DNA of 35,221 nucleotides from Actinomycetes bacterium (GTDB taxonomy: Bacteria; Actinomycetota; Acidimicrobiia; Acidimicrobiales; Palsa-688): positions 1 to 35,221 of the forward strand of contig JAKCEB010000007.1 in NCBI GenBank assembly GCA_021838305.1, read 5' to 3'. The notes beneath the pieces were generated by a model that saw nothing but the letters and a program-made list of their open reading frames with translations, was not told where the DNA came from and did no database searches. Both the position numbers and the translations under genes were made by a program. This document shows positions 2,916-35,221 of the stretch, one piece after another (positions within the stretch are counted from its first letter, which is position 1; the number at the start of each line of letters is the position of its first letter).

Positions 2916-4265
2916 CTACAACGCCGTCAGATAGCGGCGCCACTCGAACTCGCCGACCTCGGCCTTGTAGTCTGCCCATTCGGATCTTTTGTTCCGAACG
3001 AACCATTCGAAGACGTGATCGCCAAGCACGGAAGCCATCAGATGGGAGCCCTCCATGTCGTCGAGGGCTTCGGATAACGATCCGGGTAGGGACCGGATTC
3101 CGAGAGCCACCCGCTCGTGCGCCGAGAGCTCGTACAGGTTTGAGGCGGCCTCCTCCGGTAGCTGGTAGTCGCCTTCGATCCCGGCCAGCCCGGCGGCCAG
3201 GAGCGCCGCGAAAGCGAGGTAGGGGTTCGTCGCTGGATCGGGTGCCCGGTACTCGATGCGGGTCGACTCGGCCTTTCCTGTTTTGGTCGGAGGGACACGG
3301 ACCAACGCCGAGCGGTTGTTGCGGGCCCAAGATATGTGCACGGGTGCTTCGTAGCCGACGATCAGGCGCTTGTAGGAGTTCACCCACTGGTTGGTCACAG
3401 CGGTGAGCTCGCGGGCGTGAACCAAAAGTCCGGCGATGAACTGCCGGGCTGTCCGGGACAGGTGGTACTCGTCGCTCTCGTCGTAGAACGCGTTGACGCC
3501 ACCGGAGAACAGGGACATGTGGGTGTGCATCCCCGAGCCTTGAACCCCGGTTAGCGGCTTCGGCATGAACGTCGCCGCTATGCCGTGGCGCGCAGCGACC
3601 TCCTTGACGACCATGCGGACGGTCATCACGGTGTCCGCCATTGTCATCGCGTCGGTATAGCGCAGGTCGATCTCGTGCTGGCTGGGGGCGTCCTCGTGCT
3701 GGCTGTACTCGACAGGAATCCCCATCTCCTCCAACGTGAGCACCGTCTCTCGGCGCACCTCGCTTGGAAGGTCGTGGGTGGACAGATCGAAGTACGAGCC
3801 GGAGTCGAGCGGTTCGGGGGGGACGGTAACCGACGTCTTCGCGCCGGACGCCCGTTGGAAGTAGAAGTACTCGAGCTCGGGGGCTACGTAGAAGCTGTAG
3901 CCGACATCACGGGCCCTGTCCATTACCCGGCGCAGCACGTCACGGGGATCTCCGCCGAAGGGGCTTCCGTCGAGGTTGACCACGTCGCAGACCATCCTGG
4001 CTACGGGTGATCCTTCCCCGGGATGGGGAAGCAGCTGGAAGGTCTTCGCGTCAGGGACAGCGAGTACGTCGCTCTCCTGCACGCGGCTGAAGCCGTCGAT
4101 GGCCGAGCCGTCGAAAGTCATGCCTTCCTCGAGCGCGTTCTCGAGCTCGGCGGCGGTGATCTGGAACGACTTGGCGGTACCGAGGACGTCGGAGAACCAC
4201 AGCTGTACGAATCGCACGCCGCGCTCCTCGACGGTCCGCATTACATAGTCGGCTTGGCGTTCCAC
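2916..4265 (-). CDS. glnA2: Type I glutamine synthetase, GlnA2-like
   Basis: The 449-residue product has the GSI layout: N-terminal beta-grasp (FVQLWFSDVLG, MTFDGSAIDGF), then the catalytic domain with metal and substrate motifs (PELEYFYF, GSGMHTHMSLF, NRSALVRVP, RIEYRAPDPATNPYLAFAALL). The start and C-terminus (RNKRSEWADYKAEV) resemble the GlnA2 branch of actinobacteria rather than the principal GlnA1. The family forms glutamine from glutamate, ammonia and ATP, but some Streptomyces GlnA2/GlnA3 proteins are gamma-glutamylpolyamine synthetases, so the substrate is not certain. I chose the GTG at 4265 because homologues begin with a closely matching (M/V)-x-RQ sequence; a GTG at 4313 is in frame and would add 16 residues. 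The glnR-like gene follows directly. Confidence 0.92.
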   Translation of the reverse strand: MERQADYVMRTVEERGVRFVQLWFSDVLGTAKSFQITAAELENALEEGMTFDGSAIDGFSRVQESDVLAVPDAKTFQLLPHPGEGSPVARMVCDVVNLDGSPFGGDPRDVLRRVMDRARDVGYSFYVAPELEYFYFQRASGAKTSVTVPPEPLDSGSYFDLSTHDLPSEVRRETVLTLEEMGIPVEYSQHEDAPSQHEIDLRYTDAMTMADTVMTVRMVVKEVAARHGIAATFMPKPLTGVQGSGMHTHMSLFSGGVNAFYDESDEYHLSRTARQFIAGLLVHARELTAVTNQWVNSYKRLIVGYEAPVHISWARNNRSALVRVPPTKTGKAESTRIEYRAPDPATNPYLAFAALLAAGLAGIEGDYQLPEEAASNLYELSAHERVALGIRSLPGSLSEALDDMEGSHLMASVLGDHVFEWFVRNKRSEWADYKAEVGEFEWRRYLTAL

Positions 4266-4327
4266 CCCCCAGACGCTACCGATAGAGCGACGGTCGTGTC
4301 GCCATGAGTCCACCCTTGGCTGTCGAT

Positions 4328-4343
4328 GTCACAGAGCATTAAC
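4328..4343. promoter_or_regulatory. Possible half GlnR box between glnA2 and glnII
   Basis: GTCAC (4328-4332), six bases, then TTAAC (4339-4343) fits the spacing of one a-b pair in the actinobacterial GlnR box (GTnAC-n6-GAAAC repeated). The second pair is not recognisable downstream. It sits in the shared promoter region of the divergent glutamine synthetase genes, the expected place, but the match is partial. Confidence 0.3.
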
Positions 4344-4459
4344 ACGCCGGGGCCCTCGCGGCTTGGTAGCGGTGGCACAATATGGGCACCCAAGAGGTGG
4401 CTAGAAGAGCTGATCTGGCCCGCCTCAGCTACCAGACCACCAGCCAAGGAGCGCCAGGA

Positions 4460-5464
4460 GTGACAATCAAAGCCGAATACCTCTGGATCGACGGAACGGA
4501 GCCCACCCCGCTGCTTCGCTCCAAGACGAAGATCCTGCCGGCGGGAACCACCGACATGCCGATCTGGGGTTTCGACGGTTCCAGCACGAACCAGGCTCCC
4601 GGGAAGGCGTCAGACTGCGTCCTCAATCCTGTCTTCACGTGTCCGGACCCGATACGCGGCGGCGACAACTTGATCGTCCTCTGCGAGGTACTCCTCACCG
4701 ATTTCACGCCGCACAAGACGAACACCCGTTCCCAGCTTGTCCCGGTCGCGGAGAAGTACGGCGCGCAGGAGTCGCTGTTTGGTATCGAGCAGGAGTACAC
4801 CCTGTTCAAGGGCAGCCGGCCCCTCGGCTTTCCCGAGCACAATGGCTACCCCGCCCCGCAGGGCCCCTACTACTGCGGCGTCGGTGCCGACGACATCTAT
4901 GGGCGCCCGCTCGTGGAGGCACATTTGGACGCATGCCTGCAGGCAGGTCTCGCAATCTCGGGTATCAACGCCGAGGTGATGCCAGGCCAGTGGGAGTTCC
5001 AGGTCGGCCCCGTCGGGCCGCTCGAGGTTTCCGACCAGCTGTGGGTCGCGCGCTGGCTGCTGCATCGTGTCGGCGAGGACCTCGGTATATCGGTCACTCT
5101 CGACCCGAAGCCTGTTCGCGGCGACTGGAACGGCGCGGGATGCCACACCAACTTCTCGACCAACTCCATGCGCGAGTCCTACGACGCTGTCGTAAAGGCC
5201 GCTGAAGCCCTCGGCCAGAACGCAGAGGAGCACGTAGCCGCCTACGGCCACGGAATCGAGGATCGCCTCACCGGTCACCATGAGACCGCCCACTACAGCG
5301 AGTTCAGCTACGGGGTCTCGGACCGGGGAGCGTCTGTGCGGATCCCCTGGCAGGTGGAAAAAGACGGCAAGGGTTACCTCGAAGACCGCAGGCCGAACGC
5401 GAACATGGACCCCTACGTCGTCACCCGGCTGATCGTAAACACCTGCTGCTCGGCCCTGGTCTGA
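4460..5464 (+). CDS. glnII: Type II (eukaryote-like) glutamine synthetase
   Basis: The 334-residue product matches the short GSII form found in eukaryotes, rhizobia and Streptomyces. Signature segments are IWGFDGSSTNQA, the cation-binding FGIEQEYTLF, AEVMPGQWEFQVGP, GDWNGAGCHTNFST and the C-terminal EDRRPNANMDPYVV. It makes glutamine from glutamate and ammonia in the cytoplasm and, unlike GSI beta enzymes, is not controlled by adenylylation. I use the GTG at 4460, preceded by AAGGAG (4446-4451), because homologues start with MT(F/I)KAEY; the frame is open to a GTG/ATG around 4382 but that extension is not conserved. It is divergent from glnA2/glnR and is an obvious GlnR target. Confidence 0.95.
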   Translation: MTIKAEYLWIDGTEPTPLLRSKTKILPAGTTDMPIWGFDGSSTNQAPGKASDCVLNPVFTCPDPIRGGDNLIVLCEVLLTDFTPHKTNTRSQLVPVAEKYGAQESLFGIEQEYTLFKGSRPLGFPEHNGYPAPQGPYYCGVGADDIYGRPLVEAHLDACLQAGLAISGINAEVMPGQWEFQVGPVGPLEVSDQLWVARWLLHRVGEDLGISVTLDPKPVRGDWNGAGCHTNFSTNSMRESYDAVVKAAEALGQNAEEHVAAYGHGIEDRLTGHHETAHYSEFSYGVSDRGASVRIPWQVEKDGKGYLEDRRPNANMDPYVVTRLIVNTCCSALV

Positions 5465-5505
5465 GAAGCCCTGGTCTGAGAAGCCCTAGTCTGAGAAGCC
5501 CTGGT
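5461..5505. repeat. Three 15-bp tandem copies of the glnII stop-codon region
   Basis: The unit CTGAGAAGCCCTGGT lies at 5461-5475, 5476-5490 (one change, G to A) and 5491-5505. The first copy contains the last bases of glnII including its TGA, so the array places in-frame TGA codons at 5462, 5477, 5492 and 5507. The gene's own GCCCTGGT just upstream is a further partial copy, showing the array grew from the gene end. Confidence 0.9.
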
Positions 5506-5517
5506 CTGAATCAGGGC
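5498..5517 (+). terminator. Hairpin built from the last tandem repeat after glnII
   Basis: GCCCTG (5498-5503) pairs with CAGGGC (5512-5517) across an 8-base loop. No U-tract follows, so it is at best a weak or factor-assisted terminator; each upstream repeat carries another GCCCT(G/A) that could compete for the same partner arm. Confidence 0.4.
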
Positions 5518-5609
5518 CGTCCGGCGCAGGAGTCAGGGGGTGGGTTCCTTGCTCTTGCGCCGGGTCTGCGCGTTGTCTAAGCGCGGAAGGGCCGGTAGCG
5601 TAAAGGAAA

Positions 5610-6113
5610 ATGTCTTTCGCTGCGGAATCCGCATCAGCTTCCCCGGTTAGCTTCCCGGCGGACACTCCGACGGCTTCGCCAGATACGTCAACGCGAGTCG
5701 GGTCGCTCGCCCAGACCCCGACGCTGGTGCGCCCCGGCCCGAGCAGTGACAGCGGTCTCGGGTGGGCTGATAAGGCCATGGCGCGCCTTTTGAGGGTACC
5801 TCTCGGCCGGCCGAGGGCTACCGAAGCCCAAGCGCAAAGCCTGTTTCGAACCTCCATCGCGATCTCGGCGGTCAGGTGCGTAGTCAGCTATCTCGCCGTG
5901 CCGATCGCGTTGCCCTTTCTTGGCTCACTTAGCAATGTGGCTCCGGCGGTCGAGATCGTCCTGAGCGTGGTAGCGCTCGCATTCGACGTGAAGGCCCTCA
6001 GGAGATTTTGGTTGGCGTGGCACTCGTGGCGCTGGGCGATGACTCTCGTGTACACGGTGGTGATGGTTCTGATCACGGTTCTGCTTGTGTCGAACGTCGC
6101 TTCTCTCGTCTGA
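5610..6113 (+). CDS. Uncharacterised small integral membrane protein
   Basis: I do not recognise a named family. The 167-residue product begins with about 50 residues rich in Ser, Pro and Thr, likely disordered and cytoplasmic, followed by three hydrophobic stretches (about residues 84-110, 112-126 and 142-165) separated by a basic loop (DVKALRRFWLAWHSWRW). The ATG at 5610 has an AAAGGAA ribosome site five bases upstream. Its last 41 bases overlap the end of the convergent antiporter gene, and the upstream neighbour is glnII. Codon use looks like the neighbours. No function is assigned. Confidence 0.7.
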   Translation: MSFAAESASASPVSFPADTPTASPDTSTRVGSLAQTPTLVRPGPSSDSGLGWADKAMARLLRVPLGRPRATEAQAQSLFRTSIAISAVRCVVSYLAVPIALPFLGSLSNVAPAVEIVLSVVALAFDVKALRRFWLAWHSWRWAMTLVYTVVMVLITVLLVSNVASLV

Positions 6114-7299
6114 GGCCGCTCCGGGCGACGCGGGCCGATGCCGGCTTGACGAGGGATCCTTGAACTGCGACCGATGCCAGAACGACGACAACGACGATCC
6201 CGAAAAGTCGGGGGTCCTCGCCGGTGGCCGCCCCGAGTAGGTACGTGCCGAGCAGGATAGGGACCGCTCCTTTTAGCCCCGCGAACGCTACGAACATACG
6301 ATCAGGTCGCGAAAGCCCCGAGCCCGCCAAGCACCCAGCGACGGCGACGGGTCTGGCCACGACGGCGACTATCGCCGCCAGGGCGAGTCCGGGAGCCCAC
6401 GTCGAGGTCTTCGCTATGACAGTCAGGTTTACCGTGAGGCCGAGAGCCACGAAGGCGGCTATCTCCCCGAGTGTCGCGAGGGTGGCGTGGAACTGGCGAA
6501 CTTGGGTCTTGTGAGCGAACTGCTCGTCGCCGGCGACTATCCCGGCCAGGAAGACGGCGAGGAAGCCGGAACCTCCTGCGGCGGCGGCGAGCCCGAAGAT
6601 CGCCGCAGCCGCTGACAGGGAAACGATCGACTGCTCCCCGGGGCCGCCAAGAGAATCGGAGCGCAGAAGCCACACGAGCCCTTTGCCGCCGGCGACGCCT
6701 ATCAAAGCGCCGAGAGACATCTGCATCGCGAAAGTAGCGCCGGCGTGGCTTAGACCGCTGAGGTCGATACCTTTCGCCGCCAGCAACGCCACCATCAAAG
6801 CGATGCCGACCGGATCGTTCGCGCCGGACTCGCCCTCGAGCACGGTCGTGACCGTCCCGCCGAGCGGGTACTTTCCGAGTAGGGAGAACACGACGGTAGG
6901 GTCGGTGGGAGCTACGGCGGTCGCAATGAGCAACGCCGGGTACCACCCGAAGCCGAGAGCGAAGTGCAAGAACGCTCCCGCGATACCGGCTGTCATCAAC
7001 GTGCCAGCCACGCCAAGTGTGACCACCGGGCGCGCTGCATTCAAAATGCGACGCCTGCCGATACGCATTCCGCCGGCGTAGAGCACAACAACCAGCGCCA
7101 CGGTTACGACCTTCGATACGGCCGCCTCTCCGAGGTGGGCTGCGCTCGGCAGAAGGCGTGCAACGACAGCGGCGCATGGAAGGACGAGGACGGGGAGAGG
7201 GACGCCCGTCCGCTTGCACACCCTGCCTGCGACGAGAACGGCGATCACACTTATGGCTACGGCGGCGACTGCGGCGGCGAAAGGAACCGGGTCAGGCAA
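6073..7299 (-). CDS. CPA1-family cation/proton antiporter
   Basis: The 408-residue product is almost wholly hydrophobic with about 12 membrane segments. Two CPA1 hallmarks are visible: TAVAPTDPTVVFSLLG and EGESGANDPVGIAL, where the Asn-Asp pair belongs to the ion-binding centre. Such proteins exchange Na+ or K+ for protons at the plasma membrane and control pH and ion balance. The start is a TTG at 7299 with GGAG six bases upstream. No C-terminal RCK/TrkA domain is present; it ends in a short basic tail. The 3' end overlaps the convergent membrane-protein gene by 41 bases. Substrate ion cannot be read from the sequence. Confidence 0.88.
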   Translation of the reverse strand: MPDPVPFAAAVAAVAISVIAVLVAGRVCKRTGVPLPVLVLPCAAVVARLLPSAAHLGEAAVSKVVTVALVVVLYAGGMRIGRRRILNAARPVVTLGVAGTLMTAGIAGAFLHFALGFGWYPALLIATAVAPTDPTVVFSLLGKYPLGGTVTTVLEGESGANDPVGIALMVALLAAKGIDLSGLSHAGATFAMQMSLGALIGVAGGKGLVWLLRSDSLGGPGEQSIVSLSAAAAIFGLAAAAGGSGFLAVFLAGIVAGDEQFAHKTQVRQFHATLATLGEIAAFVALGLTVNLTVIAKTSTWAPGLALAAIVAVVARPVAVAGCLAGSGLSRPDRMFVAFAGLKGAVPILLGTYLLGAATGEDPRLFGIVVVVVLASVAVQGSLVKPASARVARSGLRREKRRSTQAEP

Positions 7300-26595: not shown

Positions 26596-27810
26596 GTGCC
26601 CGAGAGTCCTGAGTCGACGGTGCACGCACCGCGAGGCCAAAGCGCCGTTGGCAGCGACCTGCTCTTCGTCGTCCTGGCAGCTGCAGTCGCATTGGAAGCT
26701 GTCGGAGTAGGTGTCCTATTCCCATTACTGGCGACAATCCAAAAAGATGACCATCTGCCGACATATGGCCTTGGGATGATGTCGGGAGCCAGCTTCTTTG
26801 CCGGCTTGATCGCCCAGCTCGCCGTCACCCCGCATCTGGACGGAGCTCGCTCCCGACGGGTTCTCTTCGCCGGCCTGGCTGTAGGGGCGGCGTCGCAAGT
26901 TTGCTTCGCGTTGGTGGGAAGCCTGTGGCTTCTCGTCGCTGCACGCGCAGCAGGCGGGGTGGCCTTCGGGATCCTTCTCCCTGCGGCACTTCGCCAAGCG
27001 GGGGCGGGACGCGTCGGCGCCGAGCGCGGTCAACGCCTTGGGAGGATCTCGTCGTCGATGATGGCCGGGATCACGATCGGACCATTGCTCGGAAGCGTCC
27101 TCTACTCCTTCGGTGGTATCCGGCTCCCGTTCCTGGCGGTGGGCTTCCTCCTTGCTGTCGTGCTTTGCGCAGCCGTGGTACTGGACAGGCCGGACCCGGA
27201 CGGGGACACACCCGAAGCACCCAGCGCGAAGGAGAGCTGGCAGCTGCGAGGAATCCCGATCCGTATGGTCGCCGTCGTCTTGCTCGTCGGCGCTGCCGCG
27301 CAGCTGCCCAACGGGTTGTACGACGCGCTTTGGTCGCGGCTGCTCACCGATCGGGGTGCGAGCGCCCTTCTAATCGGCCTGAGCCTGACGCTGTTTGGAG
27401 CACCGTTCGTGGTGCTCGCACCGCTCGGGGGTCGTCTCGCGTTGCGGCGCGGACCTCTGCTTTGCGCAGCAGTAGCGCTAGTGATCGCGGATTGCTTCAT
27501 GGCGACCTACGGGTTCGTGCCGTCGCCTGTGGTGATCACTTTGCTCGGAGTCGCGGAGGCGTGCGTGCAAGCGGTGGCCGTCCCGAGCGGGTACGCGCTC
27601 GTCGGCGAGGTATTCCCTGACGAGCGGGCGGCTACCGGCCAGGGCTGGTTCGGCGCAGCAGGAACCGCAGCAGCCGGTATCGCAGCCGTTACCGGCGCAC
27701 CGCTTTATGCGACCGTGGGTTCGGGGGCGGTATTCGCCGGCGGCGCGGTGATTAGCGCAGGTCTGGCAGCAGCGGCGGCGGCTACGGGGCTTCGACGACG
27801 TCGACGGTGA
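26596..27810 (+). CDS. MFS transporter
   Basis: The 404-residue product has about 12 membrane helices. The loop between helices 2 and 3 ([14 protein letters not shown]) is a degenerate MFS motif A, and helix 4-5 shows [16 protein letters not shown]. Substrate is unknown; architecture resembles drug or metabolite efflux proteins of the DHA1 type. The start is a GTG at 26596 in GAAGAGGTG; the ribosome site is poorly spaced. It is divergent from dapD with 104 bases between, and its 3' end overlaps the convergent FAH-family gene by 29 bases. Confidence 0.85.
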
Positions 27811-28630
27811 TCTCGCCGAGGCCGGCGATCCGGCTGACGAGCCTGTCTCCTGCACCCATGTAAACCTGCGGGTCACGGCGATTGCCGACACCGGCTGGAG
27901 TCCCGGTGAAGATGAGATCGCCGGGCCAGAGCGCGCACACCGATGACAGTCGGGCGACGAGCTGCGGCACCGACCAGATCATCCTCGATGTCCGGTCGTG
28001 TTGCATCACCTTGCCGTTGAGGCTGCATTCGATCTCGAGGTCGTCGGGGTCGTCGAGAGCGCTTGGTGCAACCACGGCGGGACCGGTCGGCCCGAATCCT
28101 TTGAAGGATTTGCCGAGACTCCACTGCGGGGCGGCCCCGGCGAGCTGCACGTCGCGCGCTGAGAGATCTTGGCCGACCATCAGCCCGGCCACGAAGCGCC
28201 AACCGTCTTGTTCCTTGACCTTCTCTGCGTGGCGACCGATGACCGCCACCAGCTCGACCTCCCAGTCCATACGACTCCCAACGGCCGCGACGGTGCTCGC
28301 GGGTCCGCCGAGACAGCTCGGGAATTTGGTGAAGACCTGCGGCAACCCGTCGGTGTCGTACCCGGCTTCAGCCGCGTGGTCGCGGTAGTTGAGGCCGATA
28401 GCAAAGACCTGGCGGGGTTTGGGAACGGGGGGGCCGAGAAGCGACACATCGACGGCGCCCTGAGAAGCGGGCTCACGGTTCGTTGCCCAACCCCAGAAAC
28501 GCTCCCAGTCCTCGAACAACGAAAGCGGCTCCGGTCCCCAGCGACCACCGCTCGCGTCGAAGACGTCGAGCGCGCCGGATTCCCACCAAAGCGATGCGCG
28601 GCCGGCCAGGTTCGCGAGACGTGGGATCAT
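27782..28630 (-). CDS. FAH-family hydrolase/lyase 1
   Basis: The 282-residue product has a small N-terminal domain and a C-terminal fumarylacetoacetate-hydrolase fold. The metal-binding acids are visible in DWEVELVAVIG (Glu...Glu) and VGQDLSARDVQ, and FAIGLNYRDHAAEAG and TGTPAGVG are family signatures. Members cleave or hydrate acylpyruvates and diketo acids; some hydrolyse 2,4-diketo-3-deoxy sugar acids next to SDR dehydrogenases. The exact reaction is not readable. It is the last gene of the minus-strand catabolic run, 73 bases after the SDR gene with a hairpin between, and its end overlaps the convergent MFS gene. Confidence 0.87.
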   Translation of the reverse strand: MIPRLANLAGRASLWWESGALDVFDASGGRWGPEPLSLFEDWERFWGWATNREPASQGAVDVSLLGPPVPKPRQVFAIGLNYRDHAAEAGYDTDGLPQVFTKFPSCLGGPASTVAAVGSRMDWEVELVAVIGRHAEKVKEQDGWRFVAGLMVGQDLSARDVQLAGAAPQWSLGKSFKGFGPTGPAVVAPSALDDPDDLEIECSLNGKVMQHDRTSRMIWSVPQLVARLSSVCALWPGDLIFTGTPAGVGNRRDPQVYMGAGDRLVSRIAGLGEITVDVVEAP

Positions 28631-28703: not shown

Positions 28704-29531
28704 TCAGGCCCCGATCATGCTGTAGCCGCCGTCGCACATGATGAAGTTGCCGGTCATGTGGGAGGCGTCGTCGGTCGCCAACCACAACGCTGCGGCGGCA
28801 AGCTCCTCAGGCGGCGGAACGCGGCTCATCGGGGTCTGGGAGATTACGCGCTGGCGACGCCCGTTGTTCCAGTCCTCGCGGCCCAACGTGGACTCGGTCT
28901 CCATGAAACCAGGACCGAACGCATTGACCCTTACGGTCGGAGCGAACGCAGCAGCGTACGATTTGGTGAGGCCGAGCATCCCGTATTTGCCCGCGGCGTA
29001 CTGGGGGGCTCTCGGGCTGCCTCGCACAACGACAGTCGAGCCGATGTTGACGATGCAGCCACGCCCGCGGTCAAGCATCCGCAGGCCGTTCTCGTGCATC
29101 ATCAACATGGTTCCTTTGATGTCGACAGCTAGAACCCGGTCGATGACGGCCTCGTCGATGTCACGCCACGACATCTGATCGGTAGCGATGTCTCCGACGT
29201 TATTGACGAGCACATCGAGGCCGCCGGTCAGTGCCCAGGCCTGCTCGGTCATCGCCTTGATGTCCGACCAGCTTTTGATGTCAGCCTGCACGACGGCAGA
29301 TTGACGGCCGAGCGCTTCGACTCCCGAAGCAGTTCGACGTGCTCCCTCCTCGGAGGCGTGGTAGTGCACGACCACGTTCGCCCCTTCAGCGGCGGCGCGC
29401 AGGGCCAATGTCGCGCCGAACCCCGTGCCGGCTCCCGTCACGAGCACCCACTTGCCTTCGAAGCGGGGAAACACTGTCTGTGGAAAGCTGAGTTGGCGTG
29501 GCATCGCCTCTTGTGTCGGCGTGAGTGTCAT
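28704..29531 (-). CDS. Short-chain dehydrogenase/reductase (classical SDR)
   Basis: The 275-residue product has the Rossmann motif TGAGTGFG (residues 32-39), NNVG (110-113, the NNAG motif), catalytic Ser165, Tyr178 and Lys182 (YAAGK), and the C-terminal VNAFGPGFMET and CDGGYS. It oxidises a hydroxyl or reduces a carbonyl using NAD(P). The first 25 residues precede the usual start of the fold; an in-frame ATG at residue 10 is possible, but the ATG at 29531 has a good AAAGGAAG ribosome site. It lies between the two FAH-family genes, suggesting a dehydrogenation that makes the substrate of a hydrolase. Confidence 0.92.
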   Translation of the reverse strand: MTLTPTQEAMPRQLSFPQTVFPRFEGKWVLVTGAGTGFGATLALRAAAEGANVVVHYHASEEGARRTASGVEALGRQSAVVQADIKSWSDIKAMTEQAWALTGGLDVLVNNVGDIATDQMSWRDIDEAVIDRVLAVDIKGTMLMMHENGLRMLDRGRGCIVNIGSTVVVRGSPRAPQYAAGKYGMLGLTKSYAAAFAPTVRVNAFGPGFMETESTLGREDWNNGRRQRVISQTPMSRVPPPEELAAAALWLATDDASHMTGNFIMCDGGYSMIGA

Positions 29532-29574: not shown

Positions 29575-30447
29575 CTAGAGCCATTCGTCGCCGGTCGGAG
29601 CGGGAGTATCGTGAGCGTCCTCCCAGGCAACCACCCGGTTGCGCAGGATTCCGAGCTTCTCGATCTCTGCTTCGACCACGTCCCCGGGCTTGAGGTAGTT
29701 GGCGAACGGGTCGCTGGTGCTGGCTGCAACCCCGGCGATAGTGCCCGTGGTTAGCAGGTCGCCTGCCGAATAGACCTGCGGCGAGTGGTAGGCGACAAGC
29801 TGTGGGATCGACACAGACATCCGGCTGGTGTTCGACTTCTGGCGTACCTGCCCGTTCACACGGAGTTCCATGTCGAGATCATGCGGGTCGCCCACCTCGT
29901 CGGCGGTCACGACGTAAGGACCGAGAGGGCAGAATGTGTCGATCGCCTTCGAGAAGGAAAAGACGCCTGACTCCATCTCCCGGCGTTGGATGTCACGGGC
30001 GGTGATGTCGTTGAAGACGACGTAGCCGCCGATATGGTCCGCCGCTTCGTCGGCGCTGAAGAACTTCCCCGGCTTCGATATCACGATAGCCATCTCCAGT
30101 TCGTAGTCCAGTTCCTCGGTGAGCTTTCCGGGGTAGACGATCGGATCCTCGGGCCCGATAATCGCGTCCACGTTCTGGAAAAAGACAATCCCTTTGTTGA
30201 CCGGATGGGACCAACTGACCCGGGCCAGGTCCTCGTGGTGCTCGCGGAAGTTCCCGGCAGTGTGAAAGAACTTCTTCGGGACGATCGGCGCACGCAGTCG
30301 AACTGAGTCCAAGGCGAGGACGGCTCCCGTCTCGCGCACGGCGCCCTCCAGTTCGAAGTAGGCCCGCAGGGAAGGGCAGTCCAACTCGACGATCTGACCG
30401 TCCGTCAGGCGACCGACGCGGCCTTCGTCGAAAGAGACGAGTTTCAT
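29575..30447 (-). CDS. FAH-family hydrolase/lyase 2
   Basis: The 290-residue product has the FAH fold with metal-binding motifs EELDYELEMAIVI and FNDITARDIQ, plus FFHTAGNFREHHED, SFSKAIDTFCPLGPYVV and a TGTIAGVA segment near the end. It is of the same superfamily as FAH 1 but clearly not a recent duplicate; loops and termini differ. Typical reactions are C-C hydrolysis of acylpyruvates, isomerisation/decarboxylation of 2-oxoheptenedioates, or hydration of 2-oxopentenoates. The ATG at 30447 has a strong AAAGGAG site. The ThDP enzyme gene is 37 bases upstream and the SDR gene 43 bases downstream, so all are probably one operon. Confidence 0.89.
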   Translation of the reverse strand: MKLVSFDEGRVGRLTDGQIVELDCPSLRAYFELEGAVRETGAVLALDSVRLRAPIVPKKFFHTAGNFREHHEDLARVSWSHPVNKGIVFFQNVDAIIGPEDPIVYPGKLTEELDYELEMAIVISKPGKFFSADEAADHIGGYVVFNDITARDIQRREMESGVFSFSKAIDTFCPLGPYVVTADEVGDPHDLDMELRVNGQVRQKSNTSRMSVSIPQLVAYHSPQVYSAGDLLTTGTIAGVAASTSDPFANYLKPGDVVEAEIEKLGILRNRVVAWEDAHDTPAPTGDEWL

Positions 30448-30484: not shown

Positions 30485-32101
30485 TCACGGCGTGAACTCC
30501 GAGTCGTCGTGCACGACGGCGTCGACGAGAAATGGCTCGTCTGTTCGAGTCCGGCGACTCAAGGCTTCGTCGAGCGCCTCCTCGAGCTGGCGGTGCCCTT
30601 CGACGCGGCGGGTCCTGCAGCCGAACCCTTGAGCGATCCGCGCAACGTTGATCTCGCTGAAAGCCGGCCACGGCCCTGGGATGCCTCGCTTCCGGGCCAG
30701 GTGGTCCATAATGGCGTAACGTCCGTTCGACAGGACGACGAAGACGACTGCGACCTTGTAGTGAACCGCCGTCCAGACAGCCTGAATGCCATAAAGGGCG
30801 GAACCGTCACCGGTGACTGCCACGACCTGTCGATCCGGTAGGCCTATTCGAATTCCGACTGCAGCCGGCATCGCGAAACCGAGGCCACCCATGGCCGCAC
30901 TGACAAACCCGAGTGGACGCCGGGCAGGAAGGATCCTGTGCAGGTCCGGACGGCTTGACGGGCATTCTTCGACCACGACACAGTCCTTGTCGACTCGACG
31001 CGCAAGGCCGCGCAACACGTCGGAAGGCCGGAGCACGTCGGTAGATTCTGTCGTTGCATCGTTCCCCTCCGGCGTGGCACGGGCATCACTTCCGGCTCGG
31101 ATGGGCCGGGGACCCCGTACAGTGACTCGGTCGGCCAGCCGACTACACACTGCGGGAATCGGGCCGATGATCGCGAGATCGGCCGGGCTATGGTGAGCCA
31201 GGTCAGGGTCGTCTACGACCATCGCAACCCGGACGCCTTCTGCGACGAGCGGTCCCGACTCGTAGGGGTACTGCCGGAATGCGGGGGCACCGATGACCAC
31301 TATGAGGTCGTGTTGTCGAAGCGAGCTGCGAAGCCGCTCCCGGCCCGACGGTAGGTGACCGGCGAACAGCTGATGGTCCTGGGGGAAACCGGCCCTCGCA
31401 CCAAATGCCTCTTGCCATACCGGAGCCTGCAGCCGCTCTGCGAGGGAGACGATCGCCTGCCAGGCTTCCTCGCTGTCGGCGTCGGCTCCAACAACGATCG
31501 CCGTTGAGGCAGAGGCTTCGACGAGATCCGCCAAATCTTCGATAGCGCGCGGATCGGCTGCGGATGCGCCGACGATATGGCGCGCCGCGACCTGGCTTCC
31601 CGGCTTCGCGTCTGCGTCCCAGTCGTCCATGGGGACCACGACTACCGCCGGGCCGCGACGCGTCTTGGCTTCGTGCCACGCCTGTTCGATCGCTCCAGGG
31701 ACGTCGGTCGCGAGCGCCGGTTGGCAGCGCCACACTGGGTAGGAACCTGCCAGCCCATCGAGGTCGCCGGCGAGGAACGGTCTGAGCGGTAGGTGGCGGC
31801 GGTCCTGCTGGCCGACGACGACCACGAGCGGGGCTCGGTTGACCCGGGCGGTGGCTAGTGCTCCGACCGCGTTCCCGTATCCGGCGGTCGTATGCAGCAC
31901 GACGAGGGATGGATCGCCCGTAGCCAAGGCGAACCCAGTTGCCGCGCCGACGACGGAGCCTTCATGTAGGGCGAGCACGAACCGGATTCCGCTGTCCGGC
32001 CGGCACAGAAGCGGAATCTCGGTCGAGCCGGGGTTGGCGAACATCGTCGTCAGGCCGAGAGCCCCGCAGGTTTCGTAAGCAGCATCGGCGACTGAGATCA
32101 C
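30485..32101 (-). CDS. Benzoylformate-decarboxylase-like ThDP enzyme with His281 replaced
   Basis: The 538-residue product has the three domains of ThDP decarboxylases. From the GTG at 32101 its N-terminal numbering coincides with Pseudomonas benzoylformate decarboxylase: Ser26 (ANPGSTE), Glu47 (LALHE, cofactor activation) and His70 (LHTTAG) are all kept. The fourth classic residue, His281, aligns (by my memory of that sequence) with Tyr278 in FRQYPYESG. The ThDP motif is GDGSALYG through LSN. A 2-oxo acid decarboxylase or carboligase is expected; the substrate is unknown. The start is set by GGAG eight bases upstream and by a GTGA overlap with the ABC ATPase stop; the frame's further upstream part (to 32527) is a shadow of that gene. 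Confidence 0.88.
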   Translation of the reverse strand: MISVADAAYETCGALGLTTMFANPGSTEIPLLCRPDSGIRFVLALHEGSVVGAATGFALATGDPSLVVLHTTAGYGNAVGALATARVNRAPLVVVVGQQDRRHLPLRPFLAGDLDGLAGSYPVWRCQPALATDVPGAIEQAWHEAKTRRGPAVVVVPMDDWDADAKPGSQVAARHIVGASAADPRAIEDLADLVEASASTAIVVGADADSEEAWQAIVSLAERLQAPVWQEAFGARAGFPQDHQLFAGHLPSGRERLRSSLRQHDLIVVIGAPAFRQYPYESGPLVAEGVRVAMVVDDPDLAHHSPADLAIIGPIPAVCSRLADRVTVRGPRPIRAGSDARATPEGNDATTESTDVLRPSDVLRGLARRVDKDCVVVEECPSSRPDLHRILPARRPLGFVSAAMGGLGFAMPAAVGIRIGLPDRQVVAVTGDGSALYGIQAVWTAVHYKVAVVFVVLSNGRYAIMDHLARKRGIPGPWPAFSEINVARIAQGFGCRTRRVEGHRQLEEALDEALSRRTRTDEPFLVDAVVHDDSEFTP

Positions 32102-32931
32102 GCGAGGTGCTCCGTAGACTGTGGTTCGGTTATCGACGTAGGACGCGTAAGCGCTGCACTTCGACCGGCCGACTCGACGTGGCTCAAGACTTCGGCTTCG
32201 AGCTCGACGAAGCGGGGAAGGAGCCGTGTGTGGCGCTGCGATCGCGGCCGAGGAAGGTCGACGGGTATCTCCGCGAGAATCCGGGACGGCCTGGCCGAAA
32301 GCACGAGGACCCGGTCGCCTAGATAGACGGCCTCGCCGACGTCGTGGGTTACGAGAAGCGCTGCGAACGAGGAACGCTCCCACAGGTCCGCGACGACGTC
32401 TTCGAGGTGGCCTCGGGTGAGAGCATCGACGGACGCGAAGGGCTCGTCCATCATGAGAAGCTTCGGGTCCGAAACCATTGCACGGGCCAGGGCGGCGCGC
32501 TGCTGCATCCCCCCGGACAGCTCCCACGGGTATCTCGATGCGAAACCTTCAAGACCGACGCTCGCTAGTGCCGCGTCGACGTGGCTTTGACGTTGCGACT
32601 GCGGCAACCTCCGCGCCCCGAGCGAAACGTTCTTCCCGATCGACATCCAAGGGAAGAGGCTTTTGTTGTACTCCTGGAAGACGATCGATATCCCCGGCGC
32701 CACATCTCCGAGCGGCTGTCCGTCGAACAGGACCTCTCCTCGGTCCGGACGGCGAAGCCCTGAAGCTGCACGCAGCAGTGTCGTCTTGCCGCTCCCCGAG
32801 GGCCCGACGATGCTCACGAACTCACGGCGACCGAGGTCGAGGCTCAGGTCGGCGGTTACCTCGTTGACCGAGCCGTCCCTTCCATGCAGCGTGATACCGA
32901 GGTGTTTAAGTGAAAGGATCGGGTCAGACAT
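32098..32931 (-). CDS. NitT/TauT-type ABC importer ATPase
   Basis: The 277-residue product has Walker A GPSGSGKTT (43-51), Q-loop FQEYNKSLFPW, signature LSGGMQQR, Walker B LLMMDEPFASVD and switch His VTHDVGEAVYLGDRV, the standard order of SsuB/TauB/NrtD-type subunits. A C-terminal extension of about 50 residues follows the usual end. I use the ATG at 32931, whose product begins with the first strand; it overlaps the upstream permease stop by eight bases (ATGTCTGA). A start at 32967 would lie deeper in the permease gene. Its own stop overlaps the start of the ThDP enzyme gene in GTGA. Confidence 0.92.
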   Translation of the reverse strand: MSDPILSLKHLGITLHGRDGSVNEVTADLSLDLGRREFVSIVGPSGSGKTTLLRAASGLRRPDRGEVLFDGQPLGDVAPGISIVFQEYNKSLFPWMSIGKNVSLGARRLPQSQRQSHVDAALASVGLEGFASRYPWELSGGMQQRAALARAMVSDPKLLMMDEPFASVDALTRGHLEDVVADLWERSSFAALLVTHDVGEAVYLGDRVLVLSARPSRILAEIPVDLPRPRSQRHTRLLPRFVELEAEVLSHVESAGRSAALTRPTSITEPQSTEHLA

Positions 32932-33739
32932 ACCGGCCGCCCCCGACAGTTCCGCGTTGCCAGGCAAGGAGTCGGCCCTCAGCGAGCAGGAAGACAGTGT
33001 CGAAAGCCCACCCGAGAAGGCATAGCACCAGTACGCCGGCGTAACTTGCCGTTATCCTGAAAGACTGCTGGGCGCTGGCGATGAAATAGCCGATACCCGA
33101 CCCGCCGCCGAGGATCTCGGACACGACCATCACGGCCAAGGAGACGCTGATCGCAACGCGCAGGCCCGCGAAGACTTGCGGGCTCACAGCGGGGAGGAGC
33201 ACCTTTTGAAGTAGCGCCCTTCCTTTGAGGCCGAGCATTCGCGCGGTGTCTACGACGGTCGGATCGAGAGCTGCAGTTGCGTTTGCAGTGTTGATCAAGA
33301 CGGGCCAGACCGCGGCTGTGATGATGATCGCGACGACCATCTTGCCGCCGAGGCCGAACACGACGAGTGCGACCGGCACCAAGAGCGGTGTGGGCATGAA
33401 ACGCATGAACGCGAAAACGGCCTTGGTCCAGTCGGTCAACGCCCGGTAGTACCCGGTCAGCATCCCTACCGTCACGCCGAGGACTGCACTGATCGCAAAG
33501 CCGAGGAGAGTTCGCTCCACCGAGGGGATGAGGTCTTTGGTGAGCACCGAGCTGTCTAGAAGGTCCCATGACCGCGCGGCGGAAGCCGTGAAAGTTGGGA
33601 TTATCGAACTTCCCCACAGCAGCGAAGCGATCTGCCAAGCGAGGGCGGCGAGAGCCAGGCCTAGCCAACCGAGGCCCCAGTAGCCGACGCGCCGCCTGCG
33701 GTGCCGAGATGTCGCTGTGGTGCGCACGGCGACGCTCAT
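32924..33739 (-). CDS. ABC importer permease 2 (SsuC/TauC type)
   Basis: The 271-residue product has six membrane helices of the BPD_transp_1 domain and a basic N-terminus (RHRRRR). The EAA-loop counterpart, which docks on the ATPase, is visible at DTARMLGLKGRALLQKVLLPAVSPQVFAGLRV. Its ATG overlaps the stop of the previous permease gene in ATGA (33736-33739). It would form a heterodimer with that second, different permease. Confidence 0.92.
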   Translation of the reverse strand: MSVAVRTTATSRHRRRRVGYWGLGWLGLALAALAWQIASLLWGSSIIPTFTASAARSWDLLDSSVLTKDLIPSVERTLLGFAISAVLGVTVGMLTGYYRALTDWTKAVFAFMRFMPTPLLVPVALVVFGLGGKMVVAIIITAAVWPVLINTANATAALDPTVVDTARMLGLKGRALLQKVLLPAVSPQVFAGLRVAISVSLAVMVVSEILGGGSGIGYFIASAQQSFRITASYAGVLVLCLLGWAFDTVFLLAEGRLLAWQRGTVGGGRYV

Positions 33740-34602
33740 GCCGGGGACTCCCGGCGATCAGCCCAGGGAAGCAAACGAGTTGAGGCTGCCGTCGAGGCGA
33801 TGTTCAAGAGCCACCCGAGCGTCCCACCCGCAACGATCCCCGCGTACATCAAGGGTACTTCATTAGCCTGCTGAGCTTGCAGTACGAACGAGCCGATGCC
33901 GCCGGTGCCTCCTACGAGCTCTACCGATACCGTCACGACCAATGCCAACCCAAAAGCCACCTGGATGCCGCTCGCGATCAGCGGGGCTGCGCAAGGAATG
34001 ATGACTCGGGCGATCAGCGACGCGCCTTTCAGGTCCAGCGTTCTGCCTGTCTCGATGAACAGATTGTCGACCTGGCGAACCCCGTAGCGCGTATTGATGA
34101 AGATCGGCCAGAACGATGTAAACGCGACGAGTCCCGCGGTCATCTTGAGGCCGAGTCCGAAGGCAAGTATCGCTATCGGTATCAGCGCCAGCGAGGGTAA
34201 GGGTCTCATCATCCTGACCAGGATCTCGGTCGACGCCTCCGCGATCTTCGAGCGGCCCACAACCGTTCCTAGGACGATCCCGGCGGTGGTCGCAATCGCG
34301 AGACCGACGCCCCAAGCTTCGAGCGTGGCGCCTGCTGCATCGAAGAGTGATCCAGCGTGAGTCCAAATCGCCGCGGCCGTGTCATTGACACTTGCGAGCG
34401 CCTGGTTTGTGACGGCTCCGCTAACACTCACGACTTCCCACAACCCTACGGCAACTGCGACGCCGCCAAGCTGTCTGGCTGACCGGCGCAAGTCCGGCCC
34501 AGAGCCCCAGAACTTTCGCGGAGCATCTGAGGTTAAACCGACGAGGCTCGGATCGGCCAAGCGCACGCCGTCCGCCGCCGAGCCTATCTCAGCCGTTTGC
34601 AC
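33736..34602 (-). CDS. ABC importer permease 1 (SsuC/TauC type)
   Basis: The 288-residue product carries a BPD_transp_1 domain with six helices and an EAA-loop counterpart ETGRTLDLKGASLIARVIIPCAAPLIASGIQV. About 40 polar residues precede the first helix. It starts with a GTG at 34602, 14 bases inside the 3' end of the binding-protein gene. It is similar in layout but clearly divergent in sequence from permease 2, so the importer uses two distinct membrane subunits, unlike the classical single-permease SsuC/TauC systems. Confidence 0.92.
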   Translation of the reverse strand: MQTAEIGSAADGVRLADPSLVGLTSDAPRKFWGSGPDLRRSARQLGGVAVAVGLWEVVSVSGAVTNQALASVNDTAAAIWTHAGSLFDAAGATLEAWGVGLAIATTAGIVLGTVVGRSKIAEASTEILVRMMRPLPSLALIPIAILAFGLGLKMTAGLVAFTSFWPIFINTRYGVRQVDNLFIETGRTLDLKGASLIARVIIPCAAPLIASGIQVAFGLALVVTVSVELVGGTGGIGSFVLQAQQANEVPLMYAGIVAGGTLGWLLNIASTAASTRLLPWADRRESPA

Positions 34603-35221
34603 CGGCCCAGACGAGACTGGAGACTGCTACGGAGGACTTGATCCATCCCAACTGCAGCATGAGTTGCTCTTGGGATTGGATGCTCGACGTGTTGAGTGTC
34701 GGGCTCCAAACGGGCAGGATCAGTTTGGATGCGACCGCTGCAGGGATGCTCGTGTAGGTCGGGATTATCGCCTGGGCTGCGGCCGGGTTGGCTGCGGCGT
34801 ATGCGAGTGACTTGTTCATGGCGGTGACGAACCGGCTGACCAGCGCGGGGTCGCTGCTGATCTCCTTCGTGGAAGCGAAGTAGCCTGCGACCATTTCCGA
34901 AGGCTGCTCCCCCTCGAAGAGCGGGCTCAGCAACTTGCCTCCTTTCGCTTCTATCGAGGAAACGAACGGCTCGACTTCAGTCACCGCTTGCACCTGGCCC
35001 GAAGTCAACGCAGCGGGCATAGTAGGGAACGCGAGGGCCACCACATGCACCGACGAGGGCTGGACACCATTTCGTTGCAATATGGCGTCAAGAGCGAGCT
35101 CGTTCTCGCCCTGGGTCGCGTTAGCGGCGATGGTCTTGCCCGCAAGCTGTGAGATCGAGGTGATGCCGCTGTTGGCGCTGACGAGGATTCCGGACCAGGC
35201 GGTCGCCGCAGTTGACCCGGC
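34589..35221 (-). CDS. NMT1/SsuA-type substrate-binding protein, 5' part beyond window
   Basis: The frame is open to the window edge, giving the last 210 residues of a periplasmic-type binding protein. It shows SISQLAGKTIAAN (a typical lobe-2 entry strand), PTMPAALTSGQVQAV, EPFVSSIEAKGG and the helical end AQAIIPTYTSIPAAVASKLI. These fit the NMT1/THI5/SsuA superfamily that feeds importers for sulfonates, nitrate, pyrimidines or aromatic acids. The signal peptide and N-lobe are missing, so ligand class cannot be told. The gene heads the importer-catabolic operon and overlaps the first permease gene by 14 bases. Confidence 0.88.
   Translation of the reverse strand, partial: AGSTAATAWSGILVSANSGITSISQLAGKTIAANATQGENELALDAILQRNGVQPSSVHVVALAFPTMPAALTSGQVQAVTEVEPFVSSIEAKGGKLLSPLFEGEQPSEMVAGYFASTKEISSDPALVSRFVTAMNKSLAYAAANPAAAQAIIPTYTSIPAAVASKLILPVWSPTLNTSSIQSQEQLMLQLGWIKSSVAVSSLVWAGANG

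Follow-up and report, generated by a model that had tools for sequence, protein, structure and literature searches.

This locus raises the question of which reaction is catalyzed by a protein that resembles benzoylformate decarboxylase (BFD) and carries a tyrosine where the P. putida enzyme has His281, and whether that tyrosine says anything about the reaction. The coding sequence of this BFD-like ThDP-dependent decarboxylase lies on the minus strand at positions 30485..32101 of the window, i.e., the whole stretch of 35,221 nucleotides analyzed. It runs uninterrupted from a GTG start at 32101 to a stop at 30485, an open frame of 538 aa, and the GTG overlaps the stop (32098) of the upstream ABC ATPase gene.

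The domains TPP_enzyme_N, TPP_enzyme_M and TPP_enzyme_C all score above their Pfam cut-offs. The top NCBIfam model is NF005485, benzoylformate decarboxylase, with 487.6 bits, which misses the equivalog cut-off of 493 bits; an E-value of 1e-147, approximately the level of that cut-off, is attained by 12 of 48 members of the actinobacterial clade described below. Among the best 25 of the 54 NCBIfam families listed, the second is the acetolactate synthase large subunit (233.7 bits versus a cut-off of 363), and no acetohydroxyacid synthase cut-off is passed. Comparison with P. putida BFD (1bfd) using phmmer yielded 309.7 bits and E = 3.1e-91, hence the resemblance reflects homology rather than chance. 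In a sequence search of the PDB, P. putida BFD and mutants of it score best, with 4mpp in first place.

The structural comparison with BFD proposed in the initial annotation was carried out on an AlphaFold model built from 48 clade sequences, which has a mean pLDDT of 85.7 and a pTM of 0.90 and which, as a single chain, covers contacts other than those of Tyr278 across the dimer. The top structure found by Foldseek is again 4mpp. In VIA-align, BFD-type structures fill the top 42 rows (Z 42.6-44.7, rmsd 2.4-2.5 Å over 507-521 residues), followed by acetohydroxyacid synthase (Z 40.9). The predicted fold is BFD-type, and the BFD-like assignment made in that annotation is borne out by the TPP domains, the best NCBIfam model and the leading structures. 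The product of 30485..32101 is a member of the BFD-like ThDP decarboxylases, in their Tyr281 branch: it combines a predicted BFD fold with Glu47 and a GDG...N motif at own residues 431-459 (30725..30811, minus strand, from the alignment), which we take to be the ThDP/Mg motif. On sequence grounds, we refrain from filing it as a benzoylformate decarboxylase proper, because the NCBI cut-off is missed, His281 is replaced, and the protein stands apart from MdlC in the tree.

Relatives were collected by scanning contigs with two queries, the window protein and the relative closest to it. Of the 293 relatives counted, the best 80 (51-67% identical) were kept; all come from actinobacteria according to the titles of the source organisms, three of which (L040, L050 and L056) are given to order or phylum only. 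Together with the window and L002 they form a clade alignment of 82 rows, 81 of them distinct, L002 and L031 being one identical locus.

Three catalytic residues are invariant in this alignment: Ser26 (codon at 32024..32026), Glu47 (31961..31963) and His70 (31892..31894), all on the minus strand, are each found in 82/82 rows. Glu47 is presumably the ThDP-activating Glu. These residues are retained at exactly the numbers first proposed, and the claim that the numbering matches that of BFD holds for the N-terminal part, but not for the loop, which is shifted by three; later the offset is four in the other direction, so that BFD positions 377 and 460 correspond to own residues 381 and 464. The loop FRQYPY (own residues 275-280, 31262..31279, minus strand) aligns with FRYHQY of BFD (278-283), in agreement with the earlier reading of a Tyr at the His281 position. 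Its Tyr278 (codon at 31268..31270, minus strand) pairs with His281 both in the multiple alignment and in the HMMER alignments. A proper alignment had been named as a check that could place a His at this position; once run, it gives Tyr278. No His able to take position 281 lies in the loop when the protein is aligned with P. putida BFD, which rules out a substitute histidine there.

Tyrosine at this position is the rule among relatives. It occupies position 281 in 81 of the 82 rows of the clade alignment (80 of the 81 distinct members). L058 is the sole clade row with a Ser there (FRQSPY). Outside the clade, 42 further loci were gathered: from 396 genomes of the phylum drawn, 62 matched the BFD model at E 1e-80 and the best 30 loci were taken, and 12 plasmid loci were hand-picked from 60 hits. 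The 30 genome loci represent a single phylum and include several near-identical ones (L112-L114). One of the 42, L141, falls inside the clade; the other 41, a sample leaning to one phylum, carry Tyr in 27 cases and His in 14. Two natural crystallized "BFDs", 4q9d from M. smegmatis and 4k9q from Polynucleobacter, likewise have Tyr at 281, and the crystallized 4-hydroxybenzoylformate decarboxylases 7orx and 6qsi have His281. Since most of the related proteins examined carry tyrosine at 281, its presence there is by itself no sign of new chemistry.

The history of the position was followed in a maximum-likelihood tree of 69 rows, rooted at the midpoint and with long outer branches. The window clade, represented by 21 rows (20 from the clade alignment plus L141), is supported at 100/100 and is separate from MdlC. 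The opposite side of the fork holds the 42 other BFD-like rows, MdlC included, with support of 86/87, and the fork joining all 63 BFD-like rows has support of 100/98, with L009, L012 and L018 outside. The tree placement suggested at the outset therefore puts the enzyme with the BFD-like proteins, but not in a group with MdlC.

When changes were counted over 65 rows, omitting the outgroup rows L005, L009, L012 and L018, His281 required two changes, one leading to the 11 rows of an MdlC-type group and one to the 4 rows of a Burkholderia-type group. Given that two gains of His suffice and that Tyr is also present in L003 and L004, the closest rows outside, Tyr281 is most simply the older state in these sequences and His281 a derived one, gained twice. 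This inference is of moderate strength, due to the midpoint root, the long outer branches and an alternative grouping: a constrained tree in which the Burkholderia-type His281 group joins the window clade is not rejected (p-AU 0.291). Placing all His281 rows in one clade is mildly rejected (p-AU 0.025), with the group named after seeing the tree. Within the tree set, His281 is accompanied by Ala (11) or Val (4) at residue 460, and Tyr281 by Ile (44) or Val (7); an independent-pairs test of 281 against 460 comprises two pairs only. With tyrosine both commoner among the relatives examined and most parsimoniously older, the suggestion that loss of His281 indicates changed chemistry is left without support.

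Published work on the P. putida enzyme bears on the same point. According to PMC6028569, less than 3.5 Å separate His281 from R-mandelate in the complex, and enamine protonation was formerly attributed to this residue; a later calculation gives it no acid/base role, and its role is stated to be substrate binding only. The proton-transfer function named in the initial annotation is thus an older assignment that is now disputed. Saturation mutagenesis tolerates several replacements, with kcat losses of 5-fold for H281F and less than 20-fold for H281W and H281E (Yep et al. 2008, as reported in PMC6028569), and H281A loses 170-fold in kcat in another study (as reported in PMC6028569). A further study gives 35 U/mg for H281A versus 390 U/mg for the wild type (PMC2976732). 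For H281Y in a BFD-derived formolase, PMC11089019 reports a kcat of 69.1 versus 73.1 per min, and a KM for formaldehyde carboligation that goes from 88.7 to 61.6 mM. Crystal structures of BFD H281Y (4k9k) and H281Y/T377P/F397T/A460I (4mpp) have been determined.

The remainder of the substrate pocket also differs from that of P. putida BFD, whose native Ala460 was taken from mutant names. Pro381 (codon at 30959..30961, minus strand) stands at BFD Thr377, and Ile464, Met465, Asp466, His467 and Leu468 (30698..30712, minus strand) align with Ala460, Leu461, Arg462, Trp463 and Phe464. Throughout the clade, Pro for Thr377, Arg at 380, Ile or Val for Ala460, Asp at 462 and Leu for Phe464 are found in 82/82 rows, Met for Leu461 in 77/82, and Ser for Phe397 in 74/82. 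In the three rows of the acidimicrobial branch, the listed pocket residues are the majority types of the other 78 rows. None of the listed residues separates this branch, so the substrate class of the clade is probably valid for the window. Judging from these residues, substrate preference may differ from that of P. putida BFD through the pocket as a whole. The idea of another 2-oxo acid may hold in this form, because positions 377, 397, 460, 461 and 464 differ too, while Tyr281 alone is no pointer to it.

The four changes engineered in 4mpp also occur together in nature: Tyr281, Pro377, Thr397 and Ile460 are the natural residues in L119, from an actinobacterial genome, in L148, from a Providencia stuartii plasmid, and in L152, from a Deinococcus plasmid. 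In L152, the Tyr281 BFD-like gene (4995-6614) stands beside galactonate-pathway genes, and the substrate in that other branch may be non-aryl.

In the window, the decarboxylase gene is part of a row of genes that all lie on the minus strand. It is preceded by an NMT1-type substrate-binding protein of an ABC importer (34589..35221, PF09084), which runs off the window end, two ABC permeases (33736..34602 and 32924..33739, both PF00528) and the ABC ATPase with the overlapping stop (32098..32967), for which the best models are SaoA, SsuB and TauB, none of them reaching its cut-off. It is followed by a first FAH-family gene (29575..30447), a short-chain dehydrogenase/reductase (SDR; 28704..29531) and a second FAH-family gene (27782..28630). 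This same-strand row is probably an operon. The best NCBIfam model of both FAH-family neighbors is the sugar-acid hydrolase NF053535, with 162.1 and 169.9 bits, far below the cut-off of 500. No aldehyde dehydrogenase (ALDH) gene is present in the row; the FAH and SDR genes are found in its place. The Acidiferrimicrobium locus L031 has the same order, plus a PcaR/PobR-like IclR gene and a second SDR gene before the second FAH gene; its counterparts in the same places are 88% (first FAH), 88% (SDR) and 71% (second FAH) identical to those of the window.

Elsewhere in the window, at 2916-5464, two divergent glutamine-synthetase genes are found, a full one at 2916-4313 on the minus strand and a 360-aa one at 4382-5464 on the plus strand. 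The latter matches part of the catalytic domain only (60 bits) and is possibly an altered paralogue.

Neighborhoods were compared across 82 rows (L002, L031-L110 and L141), again 81 distinct. In 28/82 rows, the decarboxylase gene is followed on the same strand by an ALDH gene that starts less than 300 nt away; these ALDHs share 63-82% identity with the one used as query, that of L034, itself among the 28. A further 8/82 rows have an ALDH at 300-3000 nt downstream, and none was found downstream in 46/82 within the available flanks (which extend 1.5 kb or more in 76/82 rows). Phenylacetaldehyde dehydrogenase models match the ALDH as well, at scores far short of the cut-off (293 versus 800). A PobA-like gene lies near 8/82 rows, and the copy tested, that of L039, exceeds both NCBIfam cut-offs. 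An MFS family adjoins the decarboxylase in at least 13/82 rows; for the member tested, the best model is an aromatic-acid symporter at 266.8 bits, below the cut-off of 418.55. The ABC importer recurs as well, each permease being matched in 32/81 rows, although the two permeases are homologous and may match one gene. In the clustering of neighbor families, from which the MFS count is taken, some antisense frames seem to remain (f11, f30, f31), so its family counts are lower bounds.

Seven Streptomyces loci (L059, L069, L072, L076, L084, L085 and L101) have an amidase, a nitrilase-like gene, an LDH-like dehydrogenase and an ALDH around the decarboxylase gene; the nitrilase-like gene is 8.4 kb away in L059 and within 2 kb in the other six. 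We take this set to fit a mandelonitrile/mandelamide route. An indole route fits equally, given that the best model of the amidase is indoleacetamide hydrolase (487.6 versus a cut-off of 532), so the clusters are candidate mandelonitrile/mandelamide or indole pathways with a putative NAD-type dehydrogenase. The clade loci yielded no homologue of mandelate racemase or of FMN-type mandelate dehydrogenase.

Two kinds of match were set aside. In eight Geodermatophilaceae-type loci (L049, L070, L080, L087, L091, L100, L107 and L109), FAH matches of 33-40% adjoin frames resembling citramalate synthase and glutamyl-tRNA synthetase, as judged by eye, and look like a separate housekeeping island rather than pathway partners. 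The PcaR-type matches in 46/82 rows reflect the broad IclR family as a whole and were given no weight as evidence.

The genome of the window is a 2.8 Mb draft of 274 contigs, 77% complete. One stretch of it (L153, 7560-12384) holds a pobA-like gene, a PcaR/PobR-like regulator (below cut-off), pcaHG (protocatechuate 3,4-dioxygenase subunits) and pcaIJ (3-oxoacid CoA-transferase subunits), the last two pairs all above cut-off. The pobA-like product exceeds the subfamily cut-off (531.8 bits versus 351) and lies below the equivalog cut-off (461.6 versus 538.7). With pobA-like, pcaHG and pcaIJ genes encoded together, the organism probably uses 4-hydroxybenzoate or a near relative. The single strong FMN_dh protein of the genome has lactate dehydrogenase as its best model, below cut-off. 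No close copy of the partner ALDH was found, with best matches of 37% in this 77% complete genome, 40% in the genome of L031 and 42% in that of L050.

The explanation we lean towards is that the enzyme uses ThDP to decarboxylate an aryl 2-oxo acid of the benzoylformate type and belongs to a separate actinobacterial Tyr281 branch with an altered pocket. Such an acid, possibly 4-hydroxylated, is predicted to be cleaved non-oxidatively into CO2 and the corresponding aldehyde. In this scheme, ThDP would be activated by Glu47; Ser26 and Tyr281 would bind the carboxylate of the substrate, a task of His281 in the P. putida enzyme; and the oxyanion hole would be built from His70 and the amino group of the cofactor. 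The gene would be transcribed in a probable operon with the ABC importer, the two FAH-family genes and the SDR gene, the last three having presumed roles in the same context. An aryl substrate is suggested by the ALDH, PobA-like and aromatic-acid-MFS-like neighbors in the clade and by the organism's own pobA-like, pcaHG and pcaIJ genes. Against it stand the window row, which lacks an ALDH and has FAH and SDR genes instead, the want of a close ALDH copy in its genome and in those of L031 and L050, the 46/82 rows in which no downstream ALDH was found within the available flanks, the altered pocket, the missed NF005485 cut-off, the His281 of 7orx and 6qsi, the amidase that points equally to indole compounds, the own PobA below its equivalog cut-off, and the absence of mandelate racemase and FMN mandelate dehydrogenase from the clade loci.

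An unlikely alternative, though one to be taken seriously, is that the changes to Pro377, Ile460, Met461 and Leu464 shifted specificity to a non-aryl 2-oxo acid (aliphatic, branched or derived from a sugar acid), with the FAH and SDR genes in the same pathway. The five differing pocket positions and the sugar-acid hydrolase model, which leads for the FAH neighbors far below its cut-off, are consistent with this. Mutants of P. putida BFD at 377, 397, 460 and 464 have been crystallized. A460I and T377L/A460Y are reported to shift BFD toward pyruvate. However, the wider clade has the same pocket and ALDH, PobA-like and aromatic-acid-MFS-like neighbors. We give rather less credence to an arylpyruvate decarboxylase, in which indolepyruvate or phenylpyruvate would yield an arylacetaldehyde for the ALDH. 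Indoleacetate can be reached from indoleacetamide, indoleacetonitrile and indolepyruvate alike, which agrees with the amidase, nitrilase-like gene and ALDH of the seven Streptomyces loci, as does the match of the ALDH to phenylacetaldehyde dehydrogenase models; but the PobA-like genes near 8/82 rows point to hydroxybenzoate instead of arylacetate, and among the named models BFD is closest to the sequence.

The original proposal that Tyr for His281 alters proton transfer or product release, giving a carboligase or slow-release enzyme, is improbable. It draws on the proximity of His281 to R-mandelate and its former assignment to enamine protonation (PMC6028569), as well as the lower KM of formolase H281Y (PMC11089019), whereas the same sources report a calculation that denies the acid/base role, tolerance to mutagenesis, and an almost unchanged kcat of H281Y, and Tyr is the common natural residue. 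Least probable of all, we believe, is an acetolactate-synthase-like or benzaldehyde-lyase-like carboligase that merely resembles BFD. The acetolactate synthase model does come second among the best 25 of 54 families listed, but the BFD model scores twice as high, and the tree joins the clade with BFD-like rows, leaving L009, L012 and L018 outside.

Extending the favored aryl 2-oxo acid reading, we tentatively put forward a broader picture that may or may not hold: a deep, structurally unexplored actinobacterial BFD branch with its own conserved pocket (Tyr281, Pro377, Arg380, Ile/Val460, Met461, Asp462, Leu464) would decarboxylate one particular hydroxyaryl 2-oxo acid, which some members of the clade would take up through an NMT1-type ABC importer dedicated to it, and the textbook His281 would be a late, twice-acquired specialization rather than the ancestral catalytic residue. 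The case illustrates how single-residue annotation can mislead in the BFD family, where His281 is used to argue mechanism and function even though Tyr is found in most BFD-like proteins examined. If Tyr is common and older, natural sequences join published mutagenesis in pointing to His281 as a substrate-binding specialization. An ALDH accompanies the decarboxylase in roughly one locus out of three, PobA-like genes are near some and the ABC importer is near others, and these pairings provide a testable substrate prediction for the clade. Its 81 distinct loci have P. putida BFD and its kind as closest solved structures, and the clade is not named in the titles and abstract openings seen of literature on BFD annotation (M. 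smegmatis), phylogeny, paralogues, A460, Streptomyces mandelate and mandelamide. Two points of interest are left: an uncharacterized clade that has a pocket and gene partners of its own, and a hint that His281 arose later than Tyr281.

In comparison with known systems, the window enzyme can be set beside P. putida MdlC (1bfd, 1mcz), with which it shares the predicted fold (Z 43.8 and 35% identity to 1bfd), Ser26, Glu47, His70, the GDG...N motif, and Arg279 and Gly286 of the 281 loop. It differs in having Tyr for His281 and Pro, Ser, Ile, Met and Leu for Thr377, Phe397, Ala460, Leu461 and Phe464. The natural enzymes 4q9d and 4k9q are alike in Tyr281 (FRYYPY and FRYYPW) and Ile460, but have Lys462 and Phe464 in place of the Asp and Leu of the window enzyme; 4q9d, a putative ThDP enzyme of M. 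smegmatis, is placed outside the window clade by its 998-bit relative L135. The enzymes 7orx (R. jostii RHA1) and 6qsi (P. fluorescens Pf-5) share the fold, and their decarboxylation of 4-hydroxybenzoylformate is the chemistry proposed for the window enzyme, yet both carry His281, and L147, a 985-bit relative of 7orx, groups with MdlC. Finally, the engineered BFD variants 4k9k (Tyr281) and 4mpp (Tyr281, Pro377 and Ile460, among its four changes) introduce residues that are natural in the window enzyme, although they do so in a P. putida frame, whereas the window enzyme has Ser397, Met461, Asp462 and Leu464.
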